Positions 3,001-64,000 of a DNA stretch of 64,000 nt are shown here, in pieces. The notes beneath the pieces were generated by a model that saw only the letters and a list, made by a program, of their open reading frames with translations, did not search any database and had not been told where the DNA came from. A program made the position numbers and the translations under genes. Source of the DNA: Fragilariopsis cylindrus CCMP1102 (lineage: Eukaryota; Bacillariophyta; Bacillariophyceae; Bacillariales; Bacillariaceae); the NCBI GenBank assembly GCA_900095095.1, contig FMBT01000455.1, positions 31,451 through 95,450 of the forward strand, written 5' to 3'. Positions within the stretch are counted from its first letter, which is position 1. Each line of letters opens with the position of its first letter.

Positions 3001-3875
3001 GTGACAATCCAACCCCAGCCTCTACTACTAGTGGAGGAGGACGAGGAAAGCAGCAACAAAAGAAAGCATTGTTCGTTATTTCCGACGACGATGCTCCAGG
3101 TGTAAGATATTACGGTTTGTTGTTGCTATCGCTATCGCTATTTGTCTGTATCGTTTGTTGTTTTTCAAGCTCTGTCGTTCTATGCACCGGCACCTCTAAC
3201 ATACGCTGTCCTTCTCTTCTCTATAACAGGTACCTGATTTCGGTGGATCGGTTGCAGAAGCTAGTGGCTCTAAAACTGGATGGGCACCGAAGGCTACTAA
3301 GAAAGCAGTAAGAAACACAATAGACTCATCGGGTAGCGGCATGACCGGAGGAATGCGCCCAAGTGGAATTACACCGAAGAAATCTACTACGTCATCATCT
3401 CAGCGTACTCAACATCAACAAACACCTTCTCGTCCATCTTTTGGCTCGTCTGTGTAAGTTTGGTTATTCAATCCCCCTCAATTTGTTCAATTTGATAGAC
3501 TACACCTTACTTCTTGTGTACATCGTAACTAACTAACATGCGCGTTCATTGATTCGATCCGCTCTCCACCTAACTTACCACAGGTACGAAGCTTGTCCAA
3601 CATTACCTACCGAGACGTATAATACGCCAAATAACACCCCTCTGGCACGTAAACAAAAATTTGTTGCATCAGATTTGCAGCAAAAACTACAAAGGAATCC
3701 TGCAGTTAACCTACTCGACGGAGGCGCATCGAAGGAACCACCTAGGACTTTACGATATGCTGGTTCGATGATGGCAGCTCGGGTTCCTAAGACAGTCGAC
3801 CAGGAACCACAGGATTCAACGCCCGAAGAAGGGATAGAAGAAGATTCGGAAGAGGAAGAAAAGGCAAATAAATAA
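1..3875 (+). CDS. acidic low-complexity protein with SFG repeats, 5' partial, three exons
   Basis: The reading frame is open to the left edge, so the start lies outside. Exons are about 3..3101, 3230..3453 and 3584..3875; the introns begin GTAAGA and GTAAGT and end CAG. The motif runs through both joins (APG|VPDFGGSVAEAS and SFGSSV|YEA). About seven copies of a motif GPPxSFGxSVAxAS, usually followed by TG, are scattered near positions 450, 610, 763, 2540, 2853, 3230 and 3432. Between them lie Lys/Pro/Gln-rich stretches and a long Asp/Glu block (about 1790-2500). No signal peptide, membrane helix or catalytic motif is visible in the part seen. I do not recognise a family. The charge and regular short motif suggest a scaffold or multivalent binding protein, which is inference only. 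The exon structure is well supported. Confidence 0.8.
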
Positions 3876-4565
3876 AAACATAAGCATACTGCACGAACTT
3901 TCAAAGCAAAACAACTCAGGGACAAATAAAATAGGACTTATTAGATGGAGAAAGAACGACATCGTTGGGATTACTTTTCTTTCGTATCTGCTGCAATGTA
4001 ACAAAACCATGATGCTAGTAAGTAAGTAAGGCCTATTTGATGAAGAAAGAAGAAAATACTGCACCGCACAAAACAAGGGGGAATTAAAAATAACACAAAT
4101 ATGTACACGACGAAACTTCTATTCAAGCTATAAAAATAAATAATATGTAATTCGGAAAATTATATGTGTCAACACTTATGATGGGATACTTAGTATTATT
4201 CAATTTCTAGATATATATGTTAATCATCTGCGAGCTGTTTTCTAATTAAAGGTTCTGATCTACTTCAGTTCCTTCTGTTTCGGTAGACTGTGTTTGGTAG
4301 TATGAATAGGAACCAATATGCAAAGCGAAACAAGCAGCCTCGATTACCAGAGGTCGGCATATATGAGTGGCATGGTAACGAATTCGCAACCGCCACACCA
4401 TCATAATCATGTTTGTTTAACACGTTGTACGACAATTACAACCGCCTCCGACTGATTCGTAGTCCATTATCCCCCATGGTGACGCCTGGGCCATCACAAA
4501 TACCGCCACATCCACCTACCTCTATCATTGCCCCCAAGTTTCAATACTAAATGTTGTGATTGCCG
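3876..4565. other. intergenic spacer
   Basis: AT-rich spacer between two plus-strand genes. It should hold the 3' UTR of the SFG-repeat gene and the promoter of the DUF6824 gene. I see no gene, RNA or convincing repeat here. Confidence 0.5.
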
Positions 4566-5171
4566 ATGTCATTCGACATTATCACAAATGGAGTACTTGT
4601 TGTGATTTACTTGCCCAATACATCACCAGTAGTGGGGGGCGGATCGATCAAAAAAGAGACTCTCTTCACGTTGCAAAATCTACATAATAATGGTAACGGT
4701 AGGGTATACAGGGAACTAACAAACAATGATGTTGTGTTTGGTCGTGGTGGGAAAGCCAATCATCATTTAGGGAATGTCCGATATAGGAATGAGATACAAC
4801 GTTTTGAAAAGTGCTACAAATCTGCAGTAACACGATCGGAAAAAGAATGGATAGTGGATACATTTGTACAATGTCTACAATCCGATGGTACAACAATTAA
4901 TTTCCTGGAAAAAGAGAGCAAAGGCAAAGGCAATACTACTAATTGTAACTGTTGGTTTGTTGTGGATGATGATATTATTCGTCGTAAAGTACATCAAGCT
5001 TTACGAGAAAATAGAGATCCGAAGAAACGTGCAGCAAAACGTCGACGTTTCTTAGCAAAGAAAGCAGCAGTAGCAGCAGTAGCAGAAGTAGCAGCAGTAG
5101 CAGTAGCAGCAGCAGCAAAATATAAAACAAAAAAGGGAGAGAAAATAAATAAACTAGATAGATATATCTAG
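4566..5171 (+). CDS. DUF6824 domain protein (diatom family)
   Basis: About 201 residues counted from the ATG at 4566; the frame is open a little further upstream, but only with a TTG. The centre matches the DUF6824 signature as I know it: NNDVVFGRGGKANHHLGN near residue 55, then a basic, aromatic stretch, a WFVVDDD segment and the closing VHQALRE. That domain occurs in many diatom proteins, often near low-complexity regions; its biochemistry is not established, though a DNA-binding or regulatory role is often guessed. The C-terminus is a Lys/Arg cluster (KKRAAKRRRFLAKK), a possible nuclear signal, then an unusual Ala/Val run encoded by GCA/GTA triplets. No intron is needed. A missing upstream exon cannot be excluded. 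Confidence 0.75.
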   Translation: MSFDIITNGVLVVIYLPNTSPVVGGGSIKKETLFTLQNLHNNGNGRVYRELTNNDVVFGRGGKANHHLGNVRYRNEIQRFEKCYKSAVTRSEKEWIVDTFVQCLQSDGTTINFLEKESKGKGNTTNCNCWFVVDDDIIRRKVHQALRENRDPKKRAAKRRRFLAKKAAVAAVAEVAAVAVAAAAKYKTKKGEKINKLDRYI

Positions 5172-5913
5172 CTAAATGTTTAAGCGATACTGTACATACA
5201 CAGCTTTGTTTGGTACTATTCTTCTTCAATCGGACAGTCGATGCACACCGTTACTAGGGGATCGCCCTTATTGTCATCGTCGAAAGTTCCGATGTTTGTT
5301 TTGTAGGGGTGTAGTTATCATTCCAATCTTTTTAGGTTCCTGAAAGTTTTTTCAGTTGGGATATTGCTTTGAAGCATTGATTCGAATTTCTAGATTCGAT
5401 TGATTGAGATGATTCATACGTCCTTTCGCTGACCACACAAATTTGAAACGAAATTTGTATCGTGGTAAACTAGAACGTGAACCTGAGCTTCGTTTTTAGA
5501 ACTTCTTTGTTCTTTTTAATTCTACAATAACAACAACAACAACAACAACAACAACGATAACGATAACGATAACGATAACGATAATAACAGCAACGGTATC
5601 TGTTGATGAAGCTACAGAATAATCATCAAAGGATTCTTACTCACGCCTTTGCCGGAAGAGTATTCGTACGACGAGCTAGTTAGTTATCTACCGAATAGCG
5701 ATTGGCTTCTAGAATTGAGTTCCGTGCATAATATTATAACAAGTATATATTTTAACATATTATTTTCAAAATGTATTATAGTTAGTAGTAGTAGATGTCC
5801 GATATACCATCCGCTAGGCCATATTATACTATCGAAGCTGCGGTTTCATCGGAACTTGGAGTAGAAGTACATCAACAACCAGCATTGTTGGATGGGCTAT
5901 CTACTCTTTAAGG
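5172..5913. other. intergenic spacer with triplet and hexamer repeats
   Basis: At about 5523-5597 there is a (CAA)n run followed by (AACGAT)n. A 71-codon frame at 5649-5864 (PEEYSYDELVSYLPNSDWL) reads like protein but has no ATG and no recognisable family. It may be a gene remnant or a 3' exon. Otherwise nothing is seen. Confidence 0.4.
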
Positions 5914-6756
5914 TTAAAGAAGATACGAGAATTCGTTGGGTTTCTCGGCGCTGGTTTCCGTTACCCCATTGTCACTCACAACACTCGGGTTGCGATCCTC
6001 GGCAACGAACAGAATCGCGATCCCGACAAGATACACCACGTGGAACAATCCGTTGTGGTTGAACACCATAGGATTGTTGAAGGGGCAATTCTTGAAACAG
6101 TCCTTATAGGCGGGATCGCCGCACTTGGTGCGAAGGCTTATTTGGATCACGAGGCCCGCGAGCATAATAAGCGTGCCAAGGGCCTTGATAACGTAGATTT
6201 TGGGTTTCGCCACGAGGTAGAGGACGGTGGTGGTGAGGTACACGAGCATGGCCATGAGCACGACAGCGGCCAACATCTCAACCACCGCATAAACCACCAC
6301 GGTAGTCAAGAGTGTCAAGGTGGTCCACCAGATCCCTTTTTTCCACTTCTCGGGGCTAAGCATGCAAATATTGACCAGCGCAAGTCCATAAAGAGCCAAA
6401 AGAATAGATGAGCCACCCAAAAAAACCGCGGTGATGATCTCAAAAATCGCTTTTGACGGTTTCTGGCTTCTTGAGGTCACAACGATGTGGCCAATCGCGG
6501 CGACGAAAAATGATATGCCCATGGCGAGGAAAAAGTAGGGCATTAAGACGTTGTTATAGTGTGATGCAGATGCGCAGCCGTAACTGCCGAGTTTTACAAA
6601 GGCAGCCACGCCCACAAAGGCAACGGCAAAGTTGGTGGACCACGTCCCGATGGTGGTGTCTAGCTCGAAATCCTGGTTGTAGTCGGCTTCAGGGCATCCC
6701 GCGTCGATAAAGTTTTGGTCGTAAAGGATCCGGGAAGTTGGTTCGAAGAAGGACAT
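5914..6756 (-). CDS. seven-helix membrane protein of unknown function
   Basis: 280 residues, intronless, ATG at 6756. Hydrophobic segments lie near residues 41-60, 71-94, 103-130, 143-160, 161-183, 189-208 and 233-252, giving seven predicted helices. A Cys-rich loop (CGDPAYKDCFKNC, about 212-224) precedes the last helix, which opens with NHNGLFH. Histidines at about 66, 90, 234 and 239 near membrane faces recall the CREST hydrolase group (alkaline ceramidase, PAQR, TMEM8), whose last helix carries an H..(L/F)WH-type motif. That link is a guess. The coding sequence is visibly richer in G/C at third positions than its neighbours and lacks their amino-acid runs. It is divergent from the reductase gene starting at 7164. 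Confidence 0.7.
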   Translation of the reverse strand: MSFFEPTSRILYDQNFIDAGCPEADYNQDFELDTTIGTWSTNFAVAFVGVAAFVKLGSYGCASASHYNNVLMPYFFLAMGISFFVAAIGHIVVTSRSQKPSKAIFEIITAVFLGGSSILLALYGLALVNICMLSPEKWKKGIWWTTLTLLTTVVVYAVVEMLAAVVLMAMLVYLTTTVLYLVAKPKIYVIKALGTLIMLAGLVIQISLRTKCGDPAYKDCFKNCPFNNPMVFNHNGLFHVVYLVGIAILFVAEDRNPSVVSDNGVTETSAEKPNEFSYLL

Positions 6757-7163
6757 CTTGATACTACTGTTACTAGAGAGGGTTCAAAATGTTGTTTCAG
6801 CATACACGCATTATATTTATGAGAATGAACGTACAGTAAATAATTGATTGACAAGAGACGAAATGTGGTTTTTACTAACTCTGTCCACGCAATAAATGGG
6901 AAAAATACGGATCGACCGTTGAAATCAGTAACAGTAATATAGGCTACTAGTATGTGATAATCCTTGAACAAGATATTTCAAATTAAACAGTTCTTTTTCT
7001 GTAGGCATATGTGTTTGAATACTTAAGGAAAATGCTTTATCTAGGAATTTTCTTTGGTCCTCAACGGTTTTAATCACGCGATTGCGTGTTTTTGTCGCGT
7101 TATTAACTATCATGCATAACCCAAGCAAAAGCGAAGCAAAAGCAAAAATCATCAAAAATTAAA
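6757..7163. promoter_or_regulatory. shared upstream region of a divergent gene pair
   Basis: 407 bp between the start codons of the 7-TM gene (-) and the reductase gene (+). Both promoters must lie here if the starts are right. The reductase ATG has the context AAAATGGC. I cannot assign a TATA box or operator. Confidence 0.4.
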
Positions 7164-8263
7164 ATGGCAAACTTTGATACTACTTCACCTGTAATGGTAA
7201 CTGGCTCAACAGGATACGTTGCAGGCGTACTCTGTAAGGAGCTCCTCAAAGCAGGACTGACGGTTCATTTGTCCTGTGAGAGAGATCCTACAAACGAATC
7301 GAAGATCCAACATTTAAAGGATATAGAGGCTAACTCCGACGGTACACTAAGATTCTTTAGAGCTGATTTGTTGGATGATGGTTCATACCTTGAATCTATG
7401 AAAGATTGCTCAACCGTATTTGATTCGGCATCACCATTTAGTATGAGTGTACCAAAAGGGAAAGAAATAGAAATACTATTAGATCCAGCAATTAAAGGAA
7501 CAAAAAATGTTCTTCAAAGTGCAAAGGAAACTCCAACAGTAAAGCGTGTTGTATTGACATCGAGTATAGCCGCAGTTGCTGCTGATGGTACTGACAGAAA
7601 GGAATCTTTCCAAAAGACTAGTAAAATGTGTAATGAAGATAGTTGGAACGAAACGGCAAGTGTAGATTATAGCCCGTACGGGTATTCAAAAACGTTAGCA
7701 GAAAAAGCTGCATGGGAATTCGTCAAAGATAAGGACTGTAATTACGAGTTAATTGTTATCAATCCGGGTTTTGTGATGGGTCCAGGTATTATGGTCCATC
7801 CTACATCTGAATCATATCAATTTGTTCAACGATTAGGCAATGGTGTTATGAAATATGGCTGCCCAAATACTGGAATTGTGGCCGTAGATGTACGTGATGT
7901 AGCAAAAGCACATTTTAATGCTGGCTTTACGGAAAATGTTAATGGTAGATACCTTGTTGTTGGTCACAATACTAATATAATGGGAATTGCAGCTGCATTG
8001 AGTGAAATTTCTCGGAATATCCTTTCCCCAAAAATTCATTCCCCAAGTGGATACTTTGGTTGATCGCACCATTAATTGGCATGACCCGTACTTATGTATG
8101 GCGTGCTGTTAATGTTGAAGCAGGAATGGATAATTCCAAAAGTATTAGGGGTTTAAACATGGAATACAAACCATTGAATGTCACTATGCAAGATATGTTT
8201 ATACAAATGGTTGATGATGGTTTCGTGAATGATCCTACTATTGCTGTTAAAAAGGAAGAATAG
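7164..8263 (+). CDS. dihydroflavonol-4-reductase-like NAD(P)-dependent oxidoreductase, one frameshift
   Basis: Extended short-chain dehydrogenase of the DFR/cinnamoyl-CoA-reductase group. Residues 11-20 hold the Rossmann turn VTGSTGYVAG. TSSIAAV near 132 and the Y-x3-K pair (Y172, K176) with SKTLAEKAAW are the catalytic region, and INPGFVMGPG follows. The first frame ends at 8061-8063, but the family's C-terminal sequence (FPKWILWL, DNSKSIRGL, DMFIQMVDDG) continues in the -1 frame from about 8006 to 8263. The break sits near the A/T run at 8004-8010 and is cured by one extra base. Both halves are conserved, so this is one gene with a consensus error or a very recent mutation; the heptamer there is not a canonical slippery site. 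The substrate is unknown, and diatoms are not expected to make flavonoids. Convergent with the LRR gene. Confidence 0.85.
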
Positions 8264-33475: not shown

Positions 33476-36400
33476 TTACCATACACTACTACTTTCACCT
33501 ACTTTATTACGACGACACTTGTCATTATCTTGATGCATTGCCATATCTTCCACCCGTAGTGTACGTTTCAATAGATTTATAGTATCTTCTATTGGCATTA
33601 TTGGATCATCGTCATCGTCATCGTCATCGTCTATATCAAACGGATAAAATTCTATGATAATTTTTCCACCTATAATAGTAAATGCATTATCACTAAAACG
33701 ACCATGTGCCTGTGTTGTCAATACAACTAATAAGGCTACCGGTACTAAAGCTGTTACTTCAATTTGTATTATCGTCGGTATAAGAATTTTTGGATCATAA
33801 TATTCAATAGTTTCAAATTCAGTTTCAGTTCCAGATTTTTTGTCGCCATCATAATCAAGAACGTTGACATCTAAACCACTATCGCACCAGATTGTTGTAA
33901 TATCCTTTGGTGGTGAAAATAATAGAGGTGAATTATGAGATTCTAATTTACGACGACGACGACGACGACGTTGTTTTCCACGACTACTAGCATCAGCACT
34001 ACCACCACCACCAACACTGCCATCGCCGTCAGTAGCATATCGAAACACATCAATTGACATGAAATGAGTTGTACCATTAATGTTATTGGGACAATTTAAT
34101 TTTTTAAGTGACCCTGGTCCAGGTGGTAAATATATATCACTATTTGTTTCTTTTTGATAATAACTGTCGGTATGACCAGTTTCGATATTAATTACATTCA
34201 TTTCAACAACACCAGTAAAATTTCTTTCACCGGAATCATTTCGAATGTATCCAATCCCATTTGCACCACAGGTGGCAGATACATCACGAAATAATGAAGA
34301 ACGATAAAAGTAATGTAGTGGCTTCCATCGTCCACCAACAACCTGACCACCTTGAGGTAAGTTATGATTGCCATATTCTAAAGAACCCCAACCACCTGCA
34401 ATGATAAATGTAAATTCGAAAGGCACAACAACGGCAATAACATCAAGTTTGGAGGGAAACAACAACAACAGCATCAATAAGAGAAAAAAAAGCAACAACA
34501 AAAAAATCAAACAACAATAACGCGGAGCCAGCCAGTACGCACGTACCTGTCGGCCAAATTTCATTCAATTGCCATACTAAATGTCCTAATTCGTTTTTAG
34601 ATTTACGTTTCTCAATAATACTTTTTACCTGAAGTGCTTGTCCTATCATACAATGATATAATTGTTGTTGAAATTTTTTCTTGATCTGATTGCTGCCTTT
34701 AGTATTATTCTGATGATGTTGGAAGTATTCGTTTGGTTTATCAACAAAATATGCAAGTATAACGTTATCACTTCATACAGAACATTAAATATATATATAT
34801 GTAATACAAAAGGTCGGTCAACGATGAGAAAAAAAGGGAGATCCGTAGGAGGAAATGTGAATTCAAATATAATTCACTGCATATATTTATATCTCCCACA
34901 TATGTACGTGGTGGCAGAGCCGGTACATTTAAGTAAAACTTACCATGGATAATTTCTTTGTGCCATAGTATTGTTACCAACACATTTTTTATTATAGTCA
35001 TTATCATCAGTACATTGATCTGGTTTCGAGTTTGGTCCACCATGTAATGACCAATTCTCTCTCGATAATGTTGCACTCATTGATTCAAATGAACTCATTA
35101 CACCACCGACACCAAATTCACTAACAAATGTTGATGGGTAGGATATGCCCATTTTACTGTGTTCTTCTTGAATGTGATCAAGCTGTATAGGTAATTGTGG
35201 ATCAATTATTGGTTTCATATGATTATTACCATTCATTGCCGGGAAACCACCACCATGTATATATGGACCATGTACTTCTATTGTATGTCTACTACGATTA
35301 TAATTTGGTGTTATTAATGGTTCTTGTCGTTGATATTGTTGTTGTTGGTGTTGTTGTTGTTGTTGTCGACTACTACGGAATGGTCTGGATGTTAATTTAT
35401 CAACACCAGACGTCCAACCATTTCCTGGACAGGATGGCCATATAGAACGCGAATAGTCTTCTTCGGCAACAATACGCATCACAAATGTTGCATAAATACT
35501 TGTATTTGGATCATCCATATATACTTGACATTCATTACAACCATCATATATAATAATTGATGGATGTTCACTTAATAACCTAATATTGTGTCGTATTTCT
35601 AATTCTTGTGTTTTTTCTTCAGTAGGTTGATGTCCATTTTGTGCATACCTGTTTTAAAACAAGTTACAGTTGAATGGATGATTCCGAAGCGGATAAGAAA
35701 AAGGGGGGGGGGGGGAAAGAAAGGGAACCGATCCAGAGGAAGTGTAGTATGAGGAGGGTGAGGAATGATTCGAGAAGGAAAAGGACCGGAAGGGGTTGGA
35801 TCATAAAACAAAACAAAGTACCGGGAGGAGAATTTGAACCGAAAGGGGAAAACAAAGAAGGATATGGACGACGACGAAATAGGAAGGACGTTGAAGACGA
35901 CTCAAATCAAAAAAGGTTTGGGCCAAAGTAGTAGTTGTTTACTTACATTTGGTCTTGTATCACTAGTATACCATAGTCATCACAGATATCATACCATAGT
36001 TTTGGTAAAAATATACCACCACCCCAGACACGTAATGTATTCATATTGGCATATATTGCTGATTTAATTAGTTGTATATGTCCTCTTATCGTATACCGGC
36101 CTTCTAATATATCCATTGGTATCAAATTACCACCTCTAGACCATATTGGTATACCATTGATTCGATAATACATCCCATGGAATTCGGTACCTTGTTTGTT
36201 ATAGGAATTAGTAACATAATTTAGATCAGTATCGTTTCCTGTCACTAATGCAAAATGACGAAATCCTATTCGTCTTGTATCTTGTATTATCCCACCATTA
36301 TATGTTTTTGGATCGGCAGTAGTGTCAGGAATAAATCGAACATGGATATCATATAAATGTCTTTCAATAAGTATTAGTTCTTCTACCGACGACGGCCGTA

Positions 36401-38066
36401 TTATTTCGTCATAGTTCTCATCATCATCATCATCATCATCATTATCATCATACATTGCTGCTGCAGTTGCAGTTGCAGTGGTTGGACCCATTCCAGTTGG
36501 CCACCATAATTTTATATCCTTTGAATCAGCTACTAGTGATACTGTTACATTCATTTCAATTTCAGTACCACTACTATTACTTCCACTACTTACGTTATTA
36601 TCCCATTGAATTATTTTAGATATGACAGTTTGAGATCCCCACATCCCTTGTACCTCCAGACGTCCTTTCGCTTGAACTTGAACTGGTCTTATGTTTGTTA
36701 CTACTGGTGATGATAGTATAATTAAAAAATGGACTCGAATATTCACATCAAATCCATCATGCTCACCATCTATTAAAGATAGAATAGGATAATCACCACG
36801 ATACATGATTTGTGGTACAATCGCTGTAATGAATACAGCACTAGCAGTACCATCAGTACCAGTACCAGTACCAGCACCATCACCATCACCACCACCATCA
36901 CCACCAGTACCATCAGCACCACCATCACCAGTACCATCAGCAACTGATACAACAGAGTTTGTAGTAGTAGTATTACTTGATTTCAATTTCGAATCTTCTG
37001 ATTTCAATTCCAATCCAGTAGCAGAACTAGCAGAAACAGAAACTGAATTAGATGACGATACTAAATAGACAGATTTCGTGATACCAAATGTATATGTTTT
37101 TGAATTCGTATCCGACGTATGTGGACAATTACTATAGGGTGCCCAATCCCATCCACCACTACAGGCACTAAATCTACCATTTGTATTTAATATATTACTG
37201 TTATTGTTATTATTACCAGGATCAAAACGTACAGCTAATGTATTTAAAATACCAGCATTATTAAGAATGTTTTTTTGTTGTTGAGTAGTGGAATTATTTT
37301 TATTTGTAGAATTCGAACTCGCAGCTGAAGTAGTAGATGTAGAATAGGATAATGGATATATATAACGTAAAAATTGGTCGGTGGTGGTACCTAAATATTG
37401 ATTATTTAAATATATTTGACTTCCCATTCTAATTCCATCAAATACTAATAAATAACTTGTTGTTGTTGAAGACGTTGACGTTGACGTTGATGAATATGAA
37501 TCAGAATTGTTGTCGTTGTTGTCTTCATCTTCATCTTCATGATCAATTATGAGAGATGATATATCAAATTCAATACTATATTCCCATAGAAGATGTTGTT
37601 TATTACTTGCTGACGTTTCACTGTCACCTTCATCACTATTATTCATATCACAAAATGAGGTATTTTGAAATTGATTATTATAATATGGTTCATTGTACCA
37701 ATTATTAGAAATTAAATCTGATACTATATCACCAGGTACTGTTGCTGACATAACCTTGCTTATACTTTTACTATTACTTTTATTATCGTCGTCGTCGTTG
37801 CTGTCGTTGCTACTCACAAGTTGTAATGTCCATTTATTCTTTGAAGAAGTAGTAGTAGTAATAAATTCAGGATTATTATCTAAATATAAAATTGAATTAC
37901 CTTGAATAGGTCGATCACGTAAACTTCTTCTTGCAACAATATCAACAGCAGTAACAATATCAACAATAGCAACATCCATCAATAGTAGACCAAAATAACA
38001 ATAACATCCGATAATAATCGTAGTCCTACTAAATGTTATAGAACCACTACTCATAATCATAATCAT
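33476..38066 (-). CDS. beta-mannosidase-type glycoside hydrolase family 2 enzyme, four exons
   Basis: Exons 35947..38066, 34944..35648, 34547..34770 and 33476..34395 give 1,322 residues with all phases consistent; all introns are GT...AG. Motifs cross each junction: VIQDQM|YAQNGH, RNYPC|DN and NEIWPT(G)|GWGSLEYG. It is a GH2 exo-glycosidase expected to release beta-mannose from N-glycan fragments or mannans. The N-terminus has a hydrophobic signal or anchor (about 15-40). VPGDIVSDL and YNNQF belong to the sugar-binding domain; WSRGGNLIPMDI and NTLRVWGGGIFLP begin the barrel. The acid/base Glu is in DGCNEC (about 746) and the nucleophile Glu in VSEFG (about 884). The C-terminal part has a membrane-like stretch (VTALVPVALLVVL). 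Ser/Thr/Asn/Asp runs interrupt the first domain. Divergent from the MATE gene. Confidence 0.88.
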
Positions 38067-55818: not shown

Positions 55819-57096
55819 ACTCAAAAAACAAGGAGAAACGAACCACGACTAACATCAAGCGCGACGCGATGAAAGCAGCATAATTATTTGTCAGGAATAG
55901 TTACCGGTATGTAAATAATGTTAGACACGCTGTGTTAAACTCCTACAAACGGCAGCAAATTTTATCAACTGAGCGAATACCGTAAGCGAGTCAGTCCCGT
56001 CTGACTACCTATGTATAAGTATTTCGAAAAAGGTTCAATTAGGCAAGAATAATTTCAACTCCATTACCGTATCTGATGACTATGATTCCTGATACAATTC
56101 CGCCATCGAACATCTATGAAATAAATGTGTTCTCTTCAAATGCAGGCATTTGTTCGACTTCATTCACCTGACGATGTACAGTACAGTGCTCTTCAAGAAC
56201 TTTTACTTCTAAAAAAATTGACGCTTCTCATCATTCGAACTGAGAGTTCGTGAGTGCTGTCGTGAGGTTGTTCTCTATTCTCTAAATAGCTTTATGTTGG
56301 TACAGTAATAATATAACAGCGGGGCCACGCGTGTAACTGTGAGGGAAGAATGAGACACCTACCTTGCCTTCTCTACTAATCATCCTTTAAGATGCTCCGA
56401 TCAGCTTATAATATTACAGTAGTTACAATTACATATAGTACAGACCCATCATAAGCTACTAGTATTACTAGCATACCGTACGTTGTACTAGCTATATAGC
56501 TAGCTATCCACAATAATTTATTTCTTCCAACAGGTAGTAGAATAACGTTATTAGCGAAAATTAAAATCGATTCGAATCCGAATCCGAATCCGAATCATCA
56601 GCATACTGATTACTATATTATTTGAATGTCACTAAAAACGTAATAGTCGTCTGTAGTAGCGCATGTCTATCAACATTGCTTTTATTACAGTAGCCTGTAT
56701 TTTTGCTTTGCTTTGTTCTGTTTTGTTGTTTTGCTACCATCACAAAACGGTTCTCCCCCACCCATCGAAACGATCGTAATGGCAAAGATTCGATTTGATT
56801 CACAATCAATACTAGTAATCTTGTTATATAGTATTGTATTTAGGATGATAACATCTGCCATCGTTATTGTTGTTGACATGAATCAATAGACAAGACAAGA
56901 CAACTATTTCTACTAGTCTAGTATGCAGCATTTTTTGTGAAAAGTGAGATGTAAACTGTACTACACGTCGTCAATGTCGTCTTCTCCTTCACCATGCTCA
57001 TCGTCATCGTCATCGTCATCGTCGTCGACATCGTCCTCCAAGCTACTAGTATTCTGTAGCATTACATACAAGCTAGTATGATTACATTCTGCATTA

Positions 57097-58920
57097 TTAT
57101 GCATTTGCATCCATTCTTAGTTCCTCTAATCCACATAACATATACCCCATAATTGGTTGACATCGATTCAAACAGGAATCATAGATTGTACCATTATCAT
57201 ATTTCGTAGTGGACATACCCCCGGTAGTACCAATAAATATTTCAGCGATACCAATTGGTATTAATGTGGTAGTTGTATTAGTATTAGTATTAGTATGATG
57301 TATGGCATTTAATAATTTTGGTGCAGCACAATCACCAACACCACCTGGTAATAATGCTTGTTGCTGTACTTGTTGCTGTTGCTGTTGCTGTACTTGCTGC
57401 TGTTGTTGTTCTTTTAGTAGTATAGGTGGCATACGATGATGATGTCTTCTAATACTACTATTAGTTGTTGTTGTTGTTGTTGTTGCTGTTGCTGTTGCTG
57501 TTGCTGACGACGATTCTTGTTCTACTTCTTCTACTGATGTTGATGATGATTTTGCATCTACTAATTCTTCTTGTATTTGTGGTTGTTCTTGTTTTTGATT
57601 TTGATCATCATCATCATCAATAATCCCATATAGCTGCTGTTGTTGCTGTTGTGATTGCTGTTGCTGCTGTTGCTGTTGTTGTTGTTTCCATAATTGTCGA
57701 CGTTGACTTTTACGATTATTATTTTTAGTACGACGATCTAAACGTTTTTGTTTTTTATTGACATTATCATTTGTATTATTAGAATTACTCGGATACTTAT
57801 AATAGACAGTAGGAATTGATTTTGGTGATGATTCATCCTCCTTTCGAAAATTATAGATAAGTTGTGCATTTTGTAAAGATCGTAATCCTTTGGTAGCATA
57901 TTTTTTCCGTTGGGATTGCAATGTTGAAATTAGTTTGTTATTATCTTCCGTTGCAGTAACGTTAGTAGTAGCATTATTCATAGTCAGAGTCCTATTATTA
58001 ATTTGATAGGTTAAATTTGTCACATATTGTCCATTTTCTATAAATTCAGATACATTTTCTGGTATCACTATTGGTGGAACAAATCCAGTGTGACTCCATT
58101 TAGTACCTAATTTACCAGCATATCCCGCTAAATAAATAATTTCATTATTACTGTTACTTTCATTTGTATCTATACTTATACATTCCAGTACACCAATCAT
58201 TTTACCTCGTGTCGATAAGGATGTAAATAATTTATTATTCGTATTATTCGTAGTAGTAGTATTAGTAGTTGATGAGTTTGTTGACGATGCGTTTGTGGTG
58301 GTGGTTGTCGTCGTCGAGTTTAATCGTAAGGAAGAAGATAGTTCTATCTTCTTGTTGTTTTTTTCACGAGTAGAAGAGTGTTGTTGTTGTTCATTGACAT
58401 CAGTGACAGCATTGTTGACAGCATCATGAACAGCATCATTGACATTCTCATTCTCATTCTCATTCTCATCATTCTCATCATCAATCCACCAACGATCGGG
58501 AAGACAAATATCATTATTATCAGTGTTATTTTGATTATTATTTGCATGAGATAAAACTTTATGTCGTAATAGAGTCACAGCTTTTATTGCACCAGGTGTG
58601 GTGGGTAATGTATGAATTGTTTGACATCTTTTACAATATCCACTACAGGCCATCATTGACAAACAGGAACTTGAACTTGAACTTACTACAATACTAAATG
58701 AATTCACTTCAACTACTCGTACGACATTGACAACAACAACAACAACAACAATGCTAATAATAACAACAACAATTGTTCTCATTTTCATTATTATTGGTAT
58801 TATCATTGTACCGGTAGTACTCACTAATGATGATAATGATGATGATGATGATAAGTGGGCAGTATTATTATTACTATTATTATTGATCCTCCTCCTCCTC
58901 CTCTTCCTCCTCGTCGTCAT
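57097..58920 (-). CDS. protein with motifs of the RluA-associated N-terminal domain; no pseudouridine synthase domain
   Basis: 607 residues, intronless, ATG at 58920. One hydrophobic segment (about 45-70) is a signal anchor. CSGYCKRCQTIHTLP (about 92-106) is a possible zinc knuckle. GKMIGVLEC, YLAGYAGKLG and HTGFVPPI (about 245-295), then PGGVGDCAAPKLLNAI, PIGIAEIFIG and YDSCLNRCQPIMGYMLCGL near the end, match the domain I know in front of RluA-type pseudouridine synthases of many bacteria (GDCAAPKLL...AEFWWG...C..KC.PIL). The catalytic domain with its Asp motif is absent: the protein stops right after GL. About 230 residues of Asn/Thr/Gln-rich sequence separate the two halves. Function is unclear; the Cys pairs may bind metal. 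Homology is from motif memory, not a search. Confidence 0.6.
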   Translation of the reverse strand: MTTRRKRRRRRINNNSNNNTAHLSSSSSLSSLVSTTGTMIIPIIMKMRTIVVVIISIVVVVVVVNVVRVVEVNSFSIVVSSSSSSCLSMMACSGYCKRCQTIHTLPTTPGAIKAVTLLRHKVLSHANNNQNNTDNNDICLPDRWWIDDENDENENENENVNDAVHDAVNNAVTDVNEQQQHSSTREKNNKKIELSSSLRLNSTTTTTTTNASSTNSSTTNTTTTNNTNNKLFTSLSTRGKMIGVLECISIDTNESNSNNEIIYLAGYAGKLGTKWSHTGFVPPIVIPENVSEFIENGQYVTNLTYQINNRTLTMNNATTNVTATEDNNKLISTLQSQRKKYATKGLRSLQNAQLIYNFRKEDESSPKSIPTVYYKYPSNSNNTNDNVNKKQKRLDRRTKNNNRKSQRRQLWKQQQQQQQQQQSQQQQQQLYGIIDDDDDQNQKQEQPQIQEELVDAKSSSTSVEEVEQESSSATATATATTTTTTTNSSIRRHHHRMPPILLKEQQQQQVQQQQQQQVQQQALLPGGVGDCAAPKLLNAIHHTNTNTNTTTTLIPIGIAEIFIGTTGGMSTTKYDNGTIYDSCLNRCQPIMGYMLCGLEELRMDANA

Positions 58921-60182
58921 TATCGTCCTTTACTATCGTTTACTATATATCGTTATTGCTTATTCGTCGGCGTCTACAATAGAGCTACGGGTAGAGCAGC
59001 ATATGATCGATTGTAGGATTGTATGTAGGATATGATTGATTGTATAATATGTTTGTGATTTTGAAATTCGATTTTTTTGGTTTTTAATTTGAAAAATCAC
59101 GCCTAAAAAGAAAAATGACACGAGACAAGAAAGCAAGAGATGGATGGCGTCGTTACTGTTCGACTACAGTACAGGAGTGGATGATTGATTCCCGAATTCA
59201 AATAATCCTACGTACTGTGTACACGCACAGAAGGAATCCTACACGCACAGAAGGAATCCTACACGCACAGAATAAAATATAGACAAAAAACAAAATAATA
59301 CCGGTAGGTGCTACTTATGATAGCTTTATTTCTAAAGGGAATCTTACTTTTCCCCCTCTTGCATTGAATAATATATAACAATAATAGAGACATCTTTACT
59401 ACTAGTTTACCTCATACTCTACTGTTTGATTTTTAATCCTCCTCTCTTATATATGCACCTCTTCCTGTCATTTCGATATTTGCCTGCCACCCATACACAT
59501 CCTCATAGAATTTTCCCCAAATGACCAAAACTTTGCATCTCTATTGAGCATGTATATATATATATATATATATTTTGTCTGATTAGTTTGTATTAAATAG
59601 ATTGATATTCATGGGAGGTTCAATTCATTACATACCAATTTTCATGATGATGGGATAATTTTCAATTCAGTTCCTTCAAAATTACAAAATAATTTTCCTT
59701 GTTGCATGGTATTGCCCCCCACATGGTCAAAATATTCACAAAAAAAACCTCGACCATCCACCTTTTCAATTGATCTTTAATCCTCCTCTCTTATGCACCT
59801 CTTCCTGGTGGCCACCAACTTGGTAAGGATCCAGGAATTCAACCGGGTTTATCAAATATATGACACAAACTCCCAACATTTCACCTGGAATTCAGTCACT
59901 AGGTATGCAGCATTTTTCACCTGTTTCGTAAGGTATTTTTAACTGAAAAGTGACGGGGTTACCCGAAAATAAAACGCTCTTCACAAATTCAACAGAATAG
60001 AAATATGAGAGTTGGAATAACAGTGAGAAAAATAGGAAAGAATCAATTTCTTTGTTCCATGGTGAAAAGTTGGAATATCCACGGGAGACATTTTTTGATA
60101 AGAGTTGTCCATGGTCAATTATCCACGGTCAAGATACAGGAATGGATTCGGAGTCTTAGATGAGAACAGCCGATCAAAGTAA
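58921..60182. other. spacer and probable retrotransposon 3' flank
   Basis: 58921-59300 is AT-rich promoter sequence of the previous gene. 59300-60182 is probably the 3' region and LTR of the copia fragment at 60183-60398 (minus strand). On that strand TGTTGGGAG at 59878 resembles the TGTTGG start of the LTR at 61100. TTTAATCCTCCTCTCTTATATATGC at about 59431-59456 and a near copy at 59775-59797 form a diverged direct repeat. Confidence 0.4.
59220..59270 (+). repeat. 20-bp tandem repeat, 2.5 copies
   Basis: TACACGCACAGAAGGAATCC is repeated twice perfectly and a third time partially. Confidence 0.9.
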
Positions 60183-60398
60183 TTATAGGAAATGACGGCG
60201 GTAGTGACCCATGATTTTTCTTGCATGACGGGAGTGTAGGACCCATCCCAACGGCTTAGTAAGATTGTCACTTGGATTCAGGATACCAGGAATATGAATG
60301 AAAGGGATGTCTTTGCGTTGTTTCCAATCTTTAATGCAGAAGAATGGACCATCAATATGATGGGTTCGGTTGGTAGGGTGAAGAGCATTGATGATCTT
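60183..60398 (-). mobile_element. Ty1/copia (CoDi-type) pol fragment: RNase H C-terminus
   Basis: One open frame of 71 codons ending in TAA at 60183-60185. It reads KIINALHPTNRTHHID, IKDWKQRKDIPFIHIPGILN, PSDNLTKPLGWVLHSRHAR and GHYRRHF. The order RTxHID, HIPG..NPSDxLTK, WVLHxRHAR...GHY is the C-terminal end of copia-type RNase H as in diatom CoDi elements. The fragment stops upstream exactly at a TTAA (60397-60400), where a PiggyBac-like element starts. Confidence 0.8.
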
Positions 60399-61099
60399 AA
60401 CAGGATTCCTGTTATAAGGATTTTTTGTCTTTTTATTAAAAAAATTGCTAGTTAAAACACGTGTTATTTTTCCAAAAAAAATAATTTAACTTAGAGAATA
60501 TTGCTAATTTTCACTGGTTGATTGCTAGATAAAGACAAAATCATTCGCCATGTTAGTTTGCGCTAGATCGACTCAAACCAGTGACCTCAGTTAATAATAT
60601 TATCTTTTCAACCAGTTCAACCAAGAACTGTGGAAGATTTTATTACGCTGAAGATGGTAGAGCGGATTGAGTATATAAACCATAAAGCGCGCTAAATTAA
60701 CACGCGCTAAATACAGTGATTTTCGATCGAAAATCAAGATTGTTAATGGGAAATCCGAGTATACACACACATGCTAACAGTATGTGTGTGTATACTCAAC
60801 TAAAGTAGAAAAGAAGATAACGGACATGATCTCCATTAAATAGAGGTTATATATTACCTGGTTAAGTATCTACTACTCTGTTAGTTCGGATACAATAGTA
60901 CTAACACTAACACTACCTGGTGCTGTTATCTCATATAATTTCATGTCTACATGGTATGCTGCATGACAATTAACCACTGTCTTGATTCCATCCACTATTT
61001 TGATTGAATTACATAGCCAAAAATCGGATCCCTTCTCCATAGAACACTGCTCACATACATACTTTGATGGATACGCTCTTGATCTCTTTGCTCCAGTAT
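60397..61099 (-). mobile_element. PiggyBac-like transposon fragment
   Basis: One end is TTAA-CAGGATTCCTGTTATAAGG at 60397-60419. The other end is cut by the LTR at 61100. 60873-61099 (-) encodes a transposase C-terminus of about 75 residues: AYPSKYVCEQCSMEKGSDFW, LCNSI, then NCHAAYHVD. The C-x2-C ... LC ... CH-x2-YH pattern fits the Cys/His-rich end of PiggyBac (DDE_Tnp_1_7) transposases. TTAA as insertion site agrees. The catalytic core must lie on the far side of the copia insertion. Confidence 0.6.
60757..60797. repeat. perfect 16-bp inverted repeat with 9-base loop
   Basis: GAGTATACACACACAT (60757-60772), loop GCTAACAGT, and its exact reverse complement (60782-60797). It lies in the noncoding end of the PiggyBac-like fragment. 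It may be a subterminal transposase site or a hairpin terminator. Confidence 0.9.
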
Positions 61100-61490
61100 T
61101 GTTGGGGATTCAATTATTTATGGGTCCCGTGAGGTTTTCACAACAGTCATTTTAAGTCATGTCATGTACGTCGTGACACTTGTGCATGTTGTTTCCTCAC
61201 AATAAATATATATATGCTGCGCATTATCGTGTGGTTGATAATTGAAGAGAAAAGATGTGTCGTATTTACATTGCGTTAATGTAATGTAAGCACCTCCATC
61301 GGCACCTCGGATGTCAATCAATGTTGGTCATTATTTATTATAGAACTTATGCAATAGGTAAATAATAACAACAAGTTAATAAGCTAGCCATACATAGTAT
61401 TCAAACCTATATATCATCCTAGTATCTTCAAGCATTACGTAATAAGCAACATACCAATATCCACGGCGTTGCGATTACTGTATTTCAACA
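61100..61490 (+). mobile_element. 5' long terminal repeat of a copia element
   Basis: Begins TGTTGG and ends CAACA, giving the TG...CA ends and 5-bp inverted tips usual for copia LTRs; 391 bp. It directly follows the interrupted PiggyBac-like frame and precedes gag. The flanking five bases AGTAT at 61095-61099 should recur after the 3' LTR, which is outside the window. The ends are predicted from one LTR only. Confidence 0.65.
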
Positions 61491-61597
61491 TTCTATAATA
61501 AATAATCACAGTCATTGATTAAATTAATCGAATCAACAACAACAACCACCTTACAAGATATACCTATTAGTATTCCAATTACTATCACCTTGCAAGA

Positions 61598-62833
61598 ATG
61601 GCTGTCACCGACAATAAACCTGCTGACACCACCAGTACAACTGGTGGCGCCGGTAATGCCCTCTCTGCCAAAGAGAAGGAAGCGAAGGCTGCTGCTGCAG
61701 CTGCAAAGAACACAGCAAACCAAAAGAAGAAAAATCATCCATCGAATGCCTCAAACAAGAAGAAACAACAAGTTGCGAAATCCAAGTTTGAAGGTTTAGC
61801 CTCCGGTACCAATCCTATGAAAGGAACTGTCATTGCATTAGCTAATGGCAATCTACTGGGACAATATCGAACATACCAGAACACGTTGGCAGGATCGGCA
61901 GCTGCCGACAAAGCCTATGGACTTGATTCAGTTATCCTTGATTTGGTTGCTAAAATCGAATCTGATTTTGTTACATCAAAACCAGATCCTTTGCAACATT
62001 CAAACGTCGTTACCATCTACAAAAAAGATGCTTTGGGTGCAGATACTACTACACCAACTGGAGAGAAAAGACTAGTCTGTTTCGATCCTATCCTCAAGGA
62101 AAGTACGGATTCAAACTACTTCATCGATGTAAAGATACAAAAGGCCAACTGGAATAACTATGACAGGTTCTCCAAAGCATACTATCGTACAGCGATTGGG
62201 AATGTAGAGGATGTTATCATCACCTACTGTCGCGCCGACAAGAGAATGGCTCTTGTGGAAACTGAAAAAGATTTAATAGGATTCTTACAAATCCTCCGTT
62301 CAGTATGTGCACAAACCAATGGCATTGTTAAAGTCGATCAAGAATTCCAAAACCTCCACACCTTACATGCTGCAATTGCTTTCAAGCAGGCAGCTAATGT
62401 AGATGACTCCACATTCTCAAAACAAGTACAAGATCGATACAAATCAGCTATATTCACATGTGGAAAGTTCGCATTCGGACAAGCTTCATTTGACAAGGTA
62501 CTACAATCAACTCTTCCGGCACCCGTCACTCTCGATGCTTATCTCAAGCTTACACCGGAAGATCAAGCACCATATGATAAACTTGTTGAAGAGCGAATTG
62601 TCGCTCGACTGATTGTGAAGAATTCATTAAATAAGAATCTTAAAGCTCATTTAATGACCACTTACTCTACTGCTAAAGGCGATTGTTACCCCAATACAAT
62701 CAATGACGCGCTAGCGTTGCTATCAACCTTTGCTGGACCAGCAAAGAATGCACCTACTGAAGATGCTGTCGTGTCATATCACGAAAGCATCATCCGTACC
62801 GGATCCAGTGTCATCTATTCAAGAGGAGGCTGA
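61598..62833 (+). CDS. Gag protein of a CoDi-type copia retrotransposon
   Basis: 411 residues, ATG at 61598. The N-terminus is Ala/Lys-rich (to about 60), then KFEGLASGTNPMKGTVIA, GNLLGQYRTYQNTLAG, AYGLDSVILDL, RTAIGNVEDVIITYCRADKR, FLQILRSVCAQTNG, FTCGKFAFGQ, ARLIVKNSLNK and CYPNTINDALALL. I recognise this order from gag-like proteins of diatom CoDi copia elements. Gag coats the RNA in virus-like particles in the cytoplasm. No CCHC zinc knuckle is visible in this frame. The frame has no internal stop, so the copy may be recent. The last residues (after VVSYHES) run out of register with the next frame. Confidence 0.85.
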   Translation: MAVTDNKPADTTSTTGGAGNALSAKEKEAKAAAAAAKNTANQKKKNHPSNASNKKKQQVAKSKFEGLASGTNPMKGTVIALANGNLLGQYRTYQNTLAGSAAADKAYGLDSVILDLVAKIESDFVTSKPDPLQHSNVVTIYKKDALGADTTTPTGEKRLVCFDPILKESTDSNYFIDVKIQKANWNNYDRFSKAYYRTAIGNVEDVIITYCRADKRMALVETEKDLIGFLQILRSVCAQTNGIVKVDQEFQNLHTLHAAIAFKQAANVDDSTFSKQVQDRYKSAIFTCGKFAFGQASFDKVLQSTLPAPVTLDAYLKLTPEDQAPYDKLVEERIVARLIVKNSLNKNLKAHLMTTYSTAKGDCYPNTINDALALLSTFAGPAKNAPTEDAVVSYHESIIRTGSSVIYSRGG

Positions 62834-63908
62834 AGAAAACTTATCTGATCCAGAACAAGAACTAACAATTGAAGAACTGCCACCGGATGTCATCAGTCCA
62901 GTTGAATTCAATGCATCAGTTATGGCGACAGTCATTGCTGAAGCCACCAAAGAGGCTGATAACGATCGTTTCTTTGGAGCAAGCTTTGCACAACTACAAG
63001 ATGTCGATGACATCTATGATGACAATGAGCCAGATTTTGTAACCTGCGCCCATATCGCTGAACGTCCAGGAGATTCAACTGATTTTGACAGTAACTCTGA
63101 CATTGACCATGCAGGAGACCGACATGGTGATTCAAGTGACTGGGACACTGATGAATGGAATCGTGAACTTGATGAAAACAGAAATCGTCCTAAGACTGGA
63201 AAATCCCCCATCACCATCAACAAGGCGCATGGCTTTGAAACAGTTGTCTACCTCACAGCACAACGTGTTAAGAATACAGGAACAGTTCGAATCAAGCACT
63301 ATGGTATCGACGAGCCAGATCTCATCAGCTATGAATATGTTAGTCCTACCCCTGAACACATCATTGACTACTCTGATGTTATCCGTGAGAAATTGAAACT
63401 CTCAGGCATTCGTGATACTGAAACACTGGCTGAACTCTTTGAAGACTGCAGTATTGCAGAAGCCGCTAGAAGACTAGGTCAGCAACTTAGAGATGTCAAT
63501 CAGACTTCTCTACATGGTGATACAGTCCGCTACCTCAAAGAGGAAACAGAGAGACACTATGATCATATCAGGTTCTACTCTGCTAGATATATGATAATGA
63601 TCACTGAAATTGGTCCAGATGATGAACGCGAGCTCTTTCCTGCAGCTCATGTGTTGTTGCACCACACAGTGGTGGCTGTATCAATCAATCATCAACGACG
63701 TCGCAAACCCAATCGGTGGATCAATAAAGTGACCCGAAAATTGGTCAACTGCGGTGTTAACACAGTTGAGTTGCTTGAGTCCAAACTAAACGATAATACA
63801 CTAAACCTTGTGCTCCAACGCCATGGGTTACCGAAATTCCACATAATGACCATCCATGGATTCAATTTAATCCTAGATACGTCGGATTTTCGTCAGGGCC
63901 GTTCTTAA
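62715..63908 (+). CDS. second frame of the copia element (start of Pol), +1 relative to gag
   Basis: Open from 62715 in the +1 frame, overlapping gag by 119 bp, with no credible ATG of its own. It begins meaningfully at about 62785 with an acidic region (EEAEENLSDPEQELTIEELP), then ADNDRFFGASFAQLQDVDD, many Asp/Glu, a folded-looking part (ETVVYLTAQRVKNTG, PEHIIDYSDVIREKLKLSG) and RRRKPNRWINKVTRKLVNCG near 63.7 kb. I see no protease D(T/S)G or integrase HHCC motif in what is present; these may lie further on. After about 63850 the protein-like sense shifts to another frame (FNPRYVGFSSGPFLKEDRMP) that runs to the window end, suggesting a one-base break or the true continuation of Pol. Confidence 0.65.
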   Translation, partial: RCYQPLLDQQRMHLLKMLSCHITKASSVPDPVSSIQEEAEENLSDPEQELTIEELPPDVISPVEFNASVMATVIAEATKEADNDRFFGASFAQLQDVDDIYDDNEPDFVTCAHIAERPGDSTDFDSNSDIDHAGDRHGDSSDWDTDEWNRELDENRNRPKTGKSPITINKAHGFETVVYLTAQRVKNTGTVRIKHYGIDEPDLISYEYVSPTPEHIIDYSDVIREKLKLSGIRDTETLAELFEDCSIAEAARRLGQQLRDVNQTSLHGDTVRYLKEETERHYDHIRFYSARYMIMITEIGPDDERELFPAAHVLLHHTVVAVSINHQRRRKPNRWINKVTRKLVNCGVNTVELLESKLNDNTLNLVLQRHGLPKFHIMTIHGFNLILDTSDFRQGRS

Positions 63909-64000
63909 AGGAAGACCGAATGCCCTATCATCCGTATGATACTGGATGGATTAAAGCAATCTATTCATCCATCTGTTTAGGATGGTTTCTACTCTCCACC

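Follow-up and report, generated by a model that had tools for sequence, protein, structure and literature searches.

Nested mobile elements with a probable order of insertion and a candidate self-priming signature of copia elements in the diatom Fragilariopsis cylindrus

Three nested elements at the end of a contig

A stretch of 64,000 nucleotides from the genome of the diatom Fragilariopsis cylindrus CCMP1102 (hereafter the window; bases 31451-95450 of contig FMBT01000455.1, here C67) very probably records three successive transposon insertions at its right-hand end: the remnant of an old copia retrotransposon (element 1), a piggyBac-like DNA transposon that entered this remnant (element 2), and a copia element of a multicopy family that entered the transposase gene of the transposon (element 3). 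The boundaries of this nest, an empty target site on another contig and the right-hand remainder of the nest on a third are directly visible. C67 is 95450 bases long, so that window position 64000 is the contig end, and the prediction that a preliminary description of this DNA had made for the right-hand flank was therefore checked on other contigs of the same genome (assembly of 67.9 Mb in 818 contigs). In keeping with a diatom host, this genome has silicon transporter genes, with 27 PF03842 matches, all above the cut-off; one of 14 control genomes gave a match, which was below it.

In the proposed course of events, the decayed RNase H remnant found on both homologous contigs would go back to an old copia element. 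A transposase would then have pasted a piggyBac-like transposon of about 3.5 kb into a TTAA of this remnant on one of the two, duplicating the TTAA, and an integrase would subsequently have placed a member of the multicopy copia family in the transposase gene, presumably with duplication of AGTAT. Steps 1 and 2 can be ordered because the homologous contig keeps the unbroken target, and step 3 must follow step 2 because element 3 interrupts element 2. The relative order of the three insertions that had been proposed for this locus is upheld by the empty site on contig C464 together with the right side of the nest on contig C582.

A decayed copia remnant and its empty site

Element 1 (60183-60400, minus strand) is what remains of the C-terminal RNase H of an old copia pol gene, and it stops at the TTAA at 60397-60400, as had been stated. 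RNase H is its sole recognisable pol part, and no long terminal repeat (LTR) was identified. Because a Pfam search with the RNase H remnant gave no match, its copia identity was taken from fuller copia pols: 45 of 68 residues of its peptide are identical to the copia pol C-terminus on C90, and the pol of the C437 copy of element 3, which carries RVT_2, matches the counterpart of this peptide on C464 with 35% identity (E 5e-6). Upstream of the site the RNase H sequence of C464 is split into frames, and tblastn matches are confined to locus L041:4240-4684. The left part of element 1 was found at full length solely on C67 and C464, with an additional 95-bp piece on C90, and the right part was found solely on C464 and C582. 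Judging from these alignments, what remains of the old copia pol is a short piece of RNase H in a decayed state. The copia RNase H identity given in the preliminary description thus stands, but a copia pol cut at the TTAA overstates the extent of what is left.

The corresponding site on C464 reads ...GATGATCTTAATACACGCC... and contains a single TTAA, through which the RNase H frame stays open. The left junction on C67 reads ...GATGATCTTAA|CAGGATTCCTG..., and the right junction on C582 reads ...CAGGAATCCTG|TTAATACACGCC..., with a second TTAA at C582:2695-2698. The sequence C582:1-2698 is transposon, being 93.6% identical to the copy on C44 over 2711 bases and 97.4% identical to the copy on C205 over 784 bases, and the sequence beyond the TTAA is 98.2% identical to C464 over 2011 bases. 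Hence C582 carries most of the transposase remainder, the second inverted end, the TTAA and the upstream part of RNase H, joined in the manner foreseen for the right-hand flank. C464 matches the window at 56094-60400, at about 5001-6898 and, in inverse orientation, at 35000-37000, and from its continuous sequence across the site we infer that C67 and C582 are adjacent.

Several observations weigh against this arrangement. Divergence from C464 is uneven, with 171/4172 substitutions (4.1%) between C67 and C464 across window 56094-60400, of which the part at 60160-60400 contributes 1/241, as compared to 24/1996 (1.2%) between C582 and C464 on the right side. Moreover, the contigs are not fully collinear, window 35000-37000 lying inverse on C464:161881-163915. 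Finally, an assembly gap conceals about 143 bp of the transposon and everything of element 3 beyond the contig end, including its 3' LTR, together with the second AGTAT, and the step 3 insertion is visible from the left junction alone. The uneven substitutions and the one inverse probe could be accounted for if C464 were a paralogous duplicate and not the homologous allele. We regard this as unlikely, because full-length matches to each flank of the site were obtained at no more than two loci, the pattern of a diploid whose alleles are assembled separately. Whether C464 is allele or paralogue makes no difference to the order of steps 1 and 2.

Probes on either side of window 35000-37000 have the same orientation on C464, pointing to a local inversion or a misassembly of this stretch. 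A frame of 610 codons rich in Asn, Gln and Ser runs (57097-58929, minus strand) lies to the left of the nest and comprises 645 codons on C464.

A piggyBac-like transposon inserted at TTAA

Element 2 begins directly after the left TTAA (60397-60400) with the inverted end CAGGATTCCTGTTAT and reaches to 61099 (60401-61099, minus strand). In the window it consists of the left end together with the 3' portion of the transposase gene. The last ~75 residues of the transposase, its cysteine-rich C-terminus, are encoded at 60873-61099 (minus strand) and correspond in tblastn to residues 750-824 of the C44 transposase with 64% identity. Taken alone, this fragment lacks a piggyBac Pfam match, which counts against the assignment, and it gave a weak zinc-ribbon match below the cut-off (E 0.0074). 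The core domain DDE_Tnp_1_7 (PF13843) was matched in both full copies scanned, on C44 (7.1e-12) and C90 (2.7e-12); these encode transposases of about 825 amino acids, and the C44 copy of the transposon spans about 3.5 kb (L042:714-4253).

The end of element 2 is a genuine transposon end that starts exactly at the TTAA, as had been described: a TTAA followed by an end of this type, beginning with CAGG or CAGC, was present at all 20 loci read (the window's own among them; two on C603 share flanks and represent one duplicated stretch). TTAA was found at both ends, with end variants agreeing within the copy, in 8/8 copies for which both ends were located; copies with a single usable end (those in L040, the one in L035 and the second one in L036) lie outside this count. 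Over the first 19 bp, TTAA included, the left end matches the right end on C582 in inverted orientation. A genome search with the left end, in which 40 of 72 candidates were scored, gave 49 rows: one for the window itself, 8 for short hairpin self-matches and at least 40 others with 80-98% identity among the matches listed, two of which are pieces of one copy.

Animal piggyBac ends mostly start with CC. The CAGG or CAGC start of the element 2 ends differs from this and slightly lowers our assignment, even though a CC start is not strictly required. In all other respects compared, element 2 resembles the piggyBac superfamily: the TTAA target duplication, the matched inverted ends, the related transposase core identified by DDE_Tnp_1_7 and the cysteine-rich C-terminus place it there. 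When the transposase was compared by sequence with solved structures, one match at chance level (E 0.71) was returned. In the available parts of the respective articles, the piggyBac superfamily is listed for the diatom Cyclotella cryptica (PMC7466962), and a Phaeodactylum tricornutum transposase weakly related to piggyBac is reported together with a homolog in T. pseudonana (PMC2806351).

A 41-bp hairpin in the left end of the transposon (about 60757-60797) was considered as a kept pairing and rejected, since at 4 of 20 loci one arm is replaced with the partner arm unchanged. A second piggyBac-like copy lies about 12 kb to the right of the nest (C582:14500-16700, L060); it is split by a stretch of about 0.5 kb that matches both transposon ends and is perhaps a small derivative within the larger copy. 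On C809, one TTAA (L040:5679-5682) is common to two abutting piggyBac-like copies. Directly before the catalytic core, the transposase open reading frames contain a poly-Val/poly-Ser stretch made of short repeats. There is a frame change near this stretch in L036, L040, L043, L044 and L059, and it is open in L037, L038, L039, L042 and L045, as if it followed an intron-like pattern.

A copia element within the transposase gene

Uninterrupted transposon copies continue across the point 61099/61100, at which element 2 breaks off in the window. Element 3, a young copia element, starts here with a 5' LTR of 391 bp (61100-61490, plus strand; TGTTGG...CAACA) that is 100% identical to both LTRs of the C437 copy. 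It is preceded by AGTAT (61095-61099), the left copy of the expected 5-bp duplication, the right copy of which was not found. The LTR start at 61100 inside the transposase gene, already proposed in the preliminary description, is confirmed by identical LTR limits with matching 5-bp duplications in three of three relatives, the full copies on C437, C306 and C184 (GTTTG, ATAAT and GCTAT, respectively). TG...CA LTRs and the 5-bp duplication in these relatives are marks of Ty1/copia elements; the window copy shows their left side alone. The LTR search, in which 40 of 97 candidates were scored, listed 41 matches, among them the window itself and a single match that is weak and partial. A genome-wide search for the LTR end followed by AGTAT with up to 3 mismatches yielded 17 matches, none ending in AGTAT, and 1 for the reversed control pattern.

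The 2.9 kb of element 3 contained in the window are 99.7% identical to the C437 copy (4 mismatches, 4 gap openings). Its gag had been called intact, and this was not sustained: the first part (61598-62833, plus strand) runs from the ATG to a stop after 411 amino acids, compared to 768 amino acids in the C437 copy, and the sequence goes on in another frame (62715-63908, plus strand, stop-to-stop), of which 62784-63905 corresponds to residues 405-777 of the C437 gag frame with 99% identity. Gag is open for all 467 amino acids covered in three of three further copies. Located close to the end of the contig, the break could be genuine or result from faulty assembly. The pol frame (63797-64000, plus strand) is cut by the contig end before the reverse transcriptase; over its 68 amino acids it agrees fully with the beginning of the C437 pol frame, in which RVT_2 was matched with an E value of 1.2e-13. 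On these marks and alignments, element 3 is a copia element of a multicopy family.

In the C437 copy (L046), gag (835-3165) and pol (3057-7736) lie in different frames with a stop-to-stop overlap of about 109 bases. Pol frames of 1556-1560 amino acids occur in five copies of the family, in one of them with a TAG that lies in frame within the match, and are shorter in others. The offset between the gag and pol frames may be bridged by frameshifting.

Since the end of C67 lies 2.9 kb inside a multicopy element, and an error near the contig end could explain the broken gag frame, the LTR might have been wrongly attached to the transposon by misassembly. We consider this extremely unlikely, as the junction coincides exactly with the first base of the LTR, and C582 sets in about 143 bp beyond this point, as expected with a repeat in between: the first base of C582 corresponds to about L042:1563, and the equivalent of the insertion point is L042:1419. 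Hardly more probable is that no insertion took place here and that the junction at 61100 arose when copies of element 3, or of the transposon, recombined ectopically. A case of ectopic recombination is described for Phaeodactylum in the accessible portion of PMC2806351, the 3' LTR and the second AGTAT are absent from the assembly, and LTR copies with 100% identity exist elsewhere. However, C582 holds the transposon remainder up to the same TTAA, followed by the same remnant as on C464, and no third full-length locus of the RNase H remnant was found in the genome. An insertion of element 3 into the transposase gene accordingly remains our strongly preferred explanation of the junction.

A parallel case is provided by the transposon copy on C205, which at 98.2% identity is the closest other copy among the matches listed and is cut by a different copia-like element. 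The LTRs of this insert are identical (252/252), CTTAT is present on both sides, and the transposon resumes past the insert with 94.7% identity to the C44 copy over 437 bases. The C205 locus shows the completed form of the event that is seen one-sided in the window.

Transposon nesting of this kind is ordinary in diatoms, and the nest described here is a well documented clock all the same. As far as the available text of their article goes, Maumus et al. 2009 found that insertions of diatom copia elements (CoDi) are often present on one haplotype with the other intact, and that copia elements of Phaeodactylum lie inside other mobile elements (PMC2806351); nested copia elements also appear in the part of PMC8147415 that was accessible. 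The one-haplotype insertions, the copia elements within mobile elements and the piggyBac-related transposase are thus features that the present locus has in common with what is available on CoDi, whereas a three-level nest with an empty site in Fragilariopsis cylindrus sets it apart.

A candidate self-priming signature in element 3

Element 3 also carries a putative signature of self-primed reverse transcription, a by-product of this analysis that may matter more than the nest. A segment inside the LTR (61316-61345, plus strand), the proposed self-primer, is complementary at 26 of 30 positions to 61491-61520 (plus strand), the proposed primer-binding site, which starts with the first base after the LTR and begins with TTC, not TGG. 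Sixteen perfect pairs are anchored at the LTR edge, a length that none of 5000 shuffled LTRs reached, and RNA folding of 61306-61530 gave a z of -3.6, with 0/200 shuffles as stable.

Element 3 probably primes itself with its own RNA in the style of Tf1. The LTR segment 61316-61345 of the element's RNA would fold onto the 30 nt after the LTR; the RNA would be cut at 61345, and the free end would start the first DNA strand at the last base of the LTR. The primer of Tf1 is the first 11 nt of its mRNA.

The proposed pairing was compared among 25 copies, read at 25 of the 26 5' LTR-like places (match 1-401) among the matches listed, all but the one on C134, and is for the most part preserved in them. 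Of these copies, 14 have G-C and 11 have A-T at the pair 61343/61493, so that both sides have changed. As there are few subfamilies among the copies, this double change may be a single event; it could also be a product of self-priming, in which the primer is copied into the site. Other positions speak against the pairing: the pair 61318/61518 is broken in 11 of the 25 copies, 61327/61509 and 61345/61491 are broken in 2 copies each, and 4 of the 30 positions are never Watson-Crick (three unpaired, one G-T).

Edge-anchored complements in further families

Comparable complements were present in two further elements. In another element on C437 (L011; LTR of 321 bp, duplication GTACT), 14 perfect pairs are anchored at the LTR edge, and 12 in the C205 element (L035). 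The LTR edge of the latter was first suggested by the complement and then confirmed by the identical 3' LTR; its shuffle run used the 250 bases before the edge, compared to 252 in the LTR. In each of the three families, no other anchor among the next 119 positions equals the edge, and 0/5000 shuffled LTRs reach the observed length. Inverted repeats at the copia end on C90 (L038) yielded nothing of use.

As an alternative to self-priming, the complementarity could form a structural stem that serves packaging or translation control, with a transfer RNA (tRNA) acting as primer. Retroviruses have U5-leader stems, which lends this some plausibility; ARAGORN detected no tRNA genes in the window. We nevertheless consider such a stem doubtful, as in three families of unrelated sequence the complement begins precisely with the base that follows the LTR, each beyond the reach of its shuffled LTRs, and none of the three primer sites has a TGG start.

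The possibility that diatom copia elements prime themselves as a rule, even in lineages that diverged deeply, appears evenly balanced to us. It is suggested by the finding that all three families with a fixed LTR edge, from two lineages, have an edge-anchored complement to their own LTR and none a tRNA-type start. A point against self-priming is that there are three families in all, two of which are placed in copia on weak profile matches. The pols of L011 and L035 are 37-40% identical to each other and barely align with that of element 3 (best E 4e-4 and 2.1, respectively). The L011 pol matched RVT_2 (E 0.0038) and SH3_retrovirus (0.00015), both below the cut-off, with integrase-type matches preceding the reverse transcriptase, and the L035 pol matched SH3_retrovirus (0.025) and rve (0.027), likewise below the cut-off.

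According to the accessible part of PMC6317226, Tf1/Sushi elements and Tcn1 self-prime, and the plant copia TAR lineage (Houba, Osr-1) does so by prediction. With these, as they are presented there, the diatom elements share a post-LTR site complementary to their own LTR and, judging by its start, the lack of an obvious tRNA-type site; they differ in the diatom host and in the 16, 14 and 12 perfect pairs of the three families. The fungal GalEa copia elements have a conserved hairpin in place of a primer site (PMC5445492, available text). They resemble element 3 in being copia elements apparently without a tRNA-type primer site, and differ in that the authors, in that same text, detected no complementary LTR repeat, which is present in element 3. 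The literature searches made on self-priming of diatom retrotransposons, which led to PMC5445492 and PMC3601003 (available text), gave no report of it in a diatom element. In the available text of PMC2806351 a word search gave 0 occurrences of 'tRNA', 0 of 'self-prim' and a single 'PBS' that denotes a buffer, and priming is not discussed there under those words. If true, the signature in several diatom copia families would widen self-priming beyond Tf1/Sushi and one plant copia lineage.

The copia-like pols of L035 (2-2854) and L011 (2828-5950, minus strand) additionally contain a PTM/DIR17-like Tudor domain (PF21743), matched over the cut-off with E values of 5.4e-12 and 8.5e-10, respectively, and located in L011 between the weak SH3_retrovirus and RVT_2 matches. 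By reading histones, a domain of this type might direct insertion.

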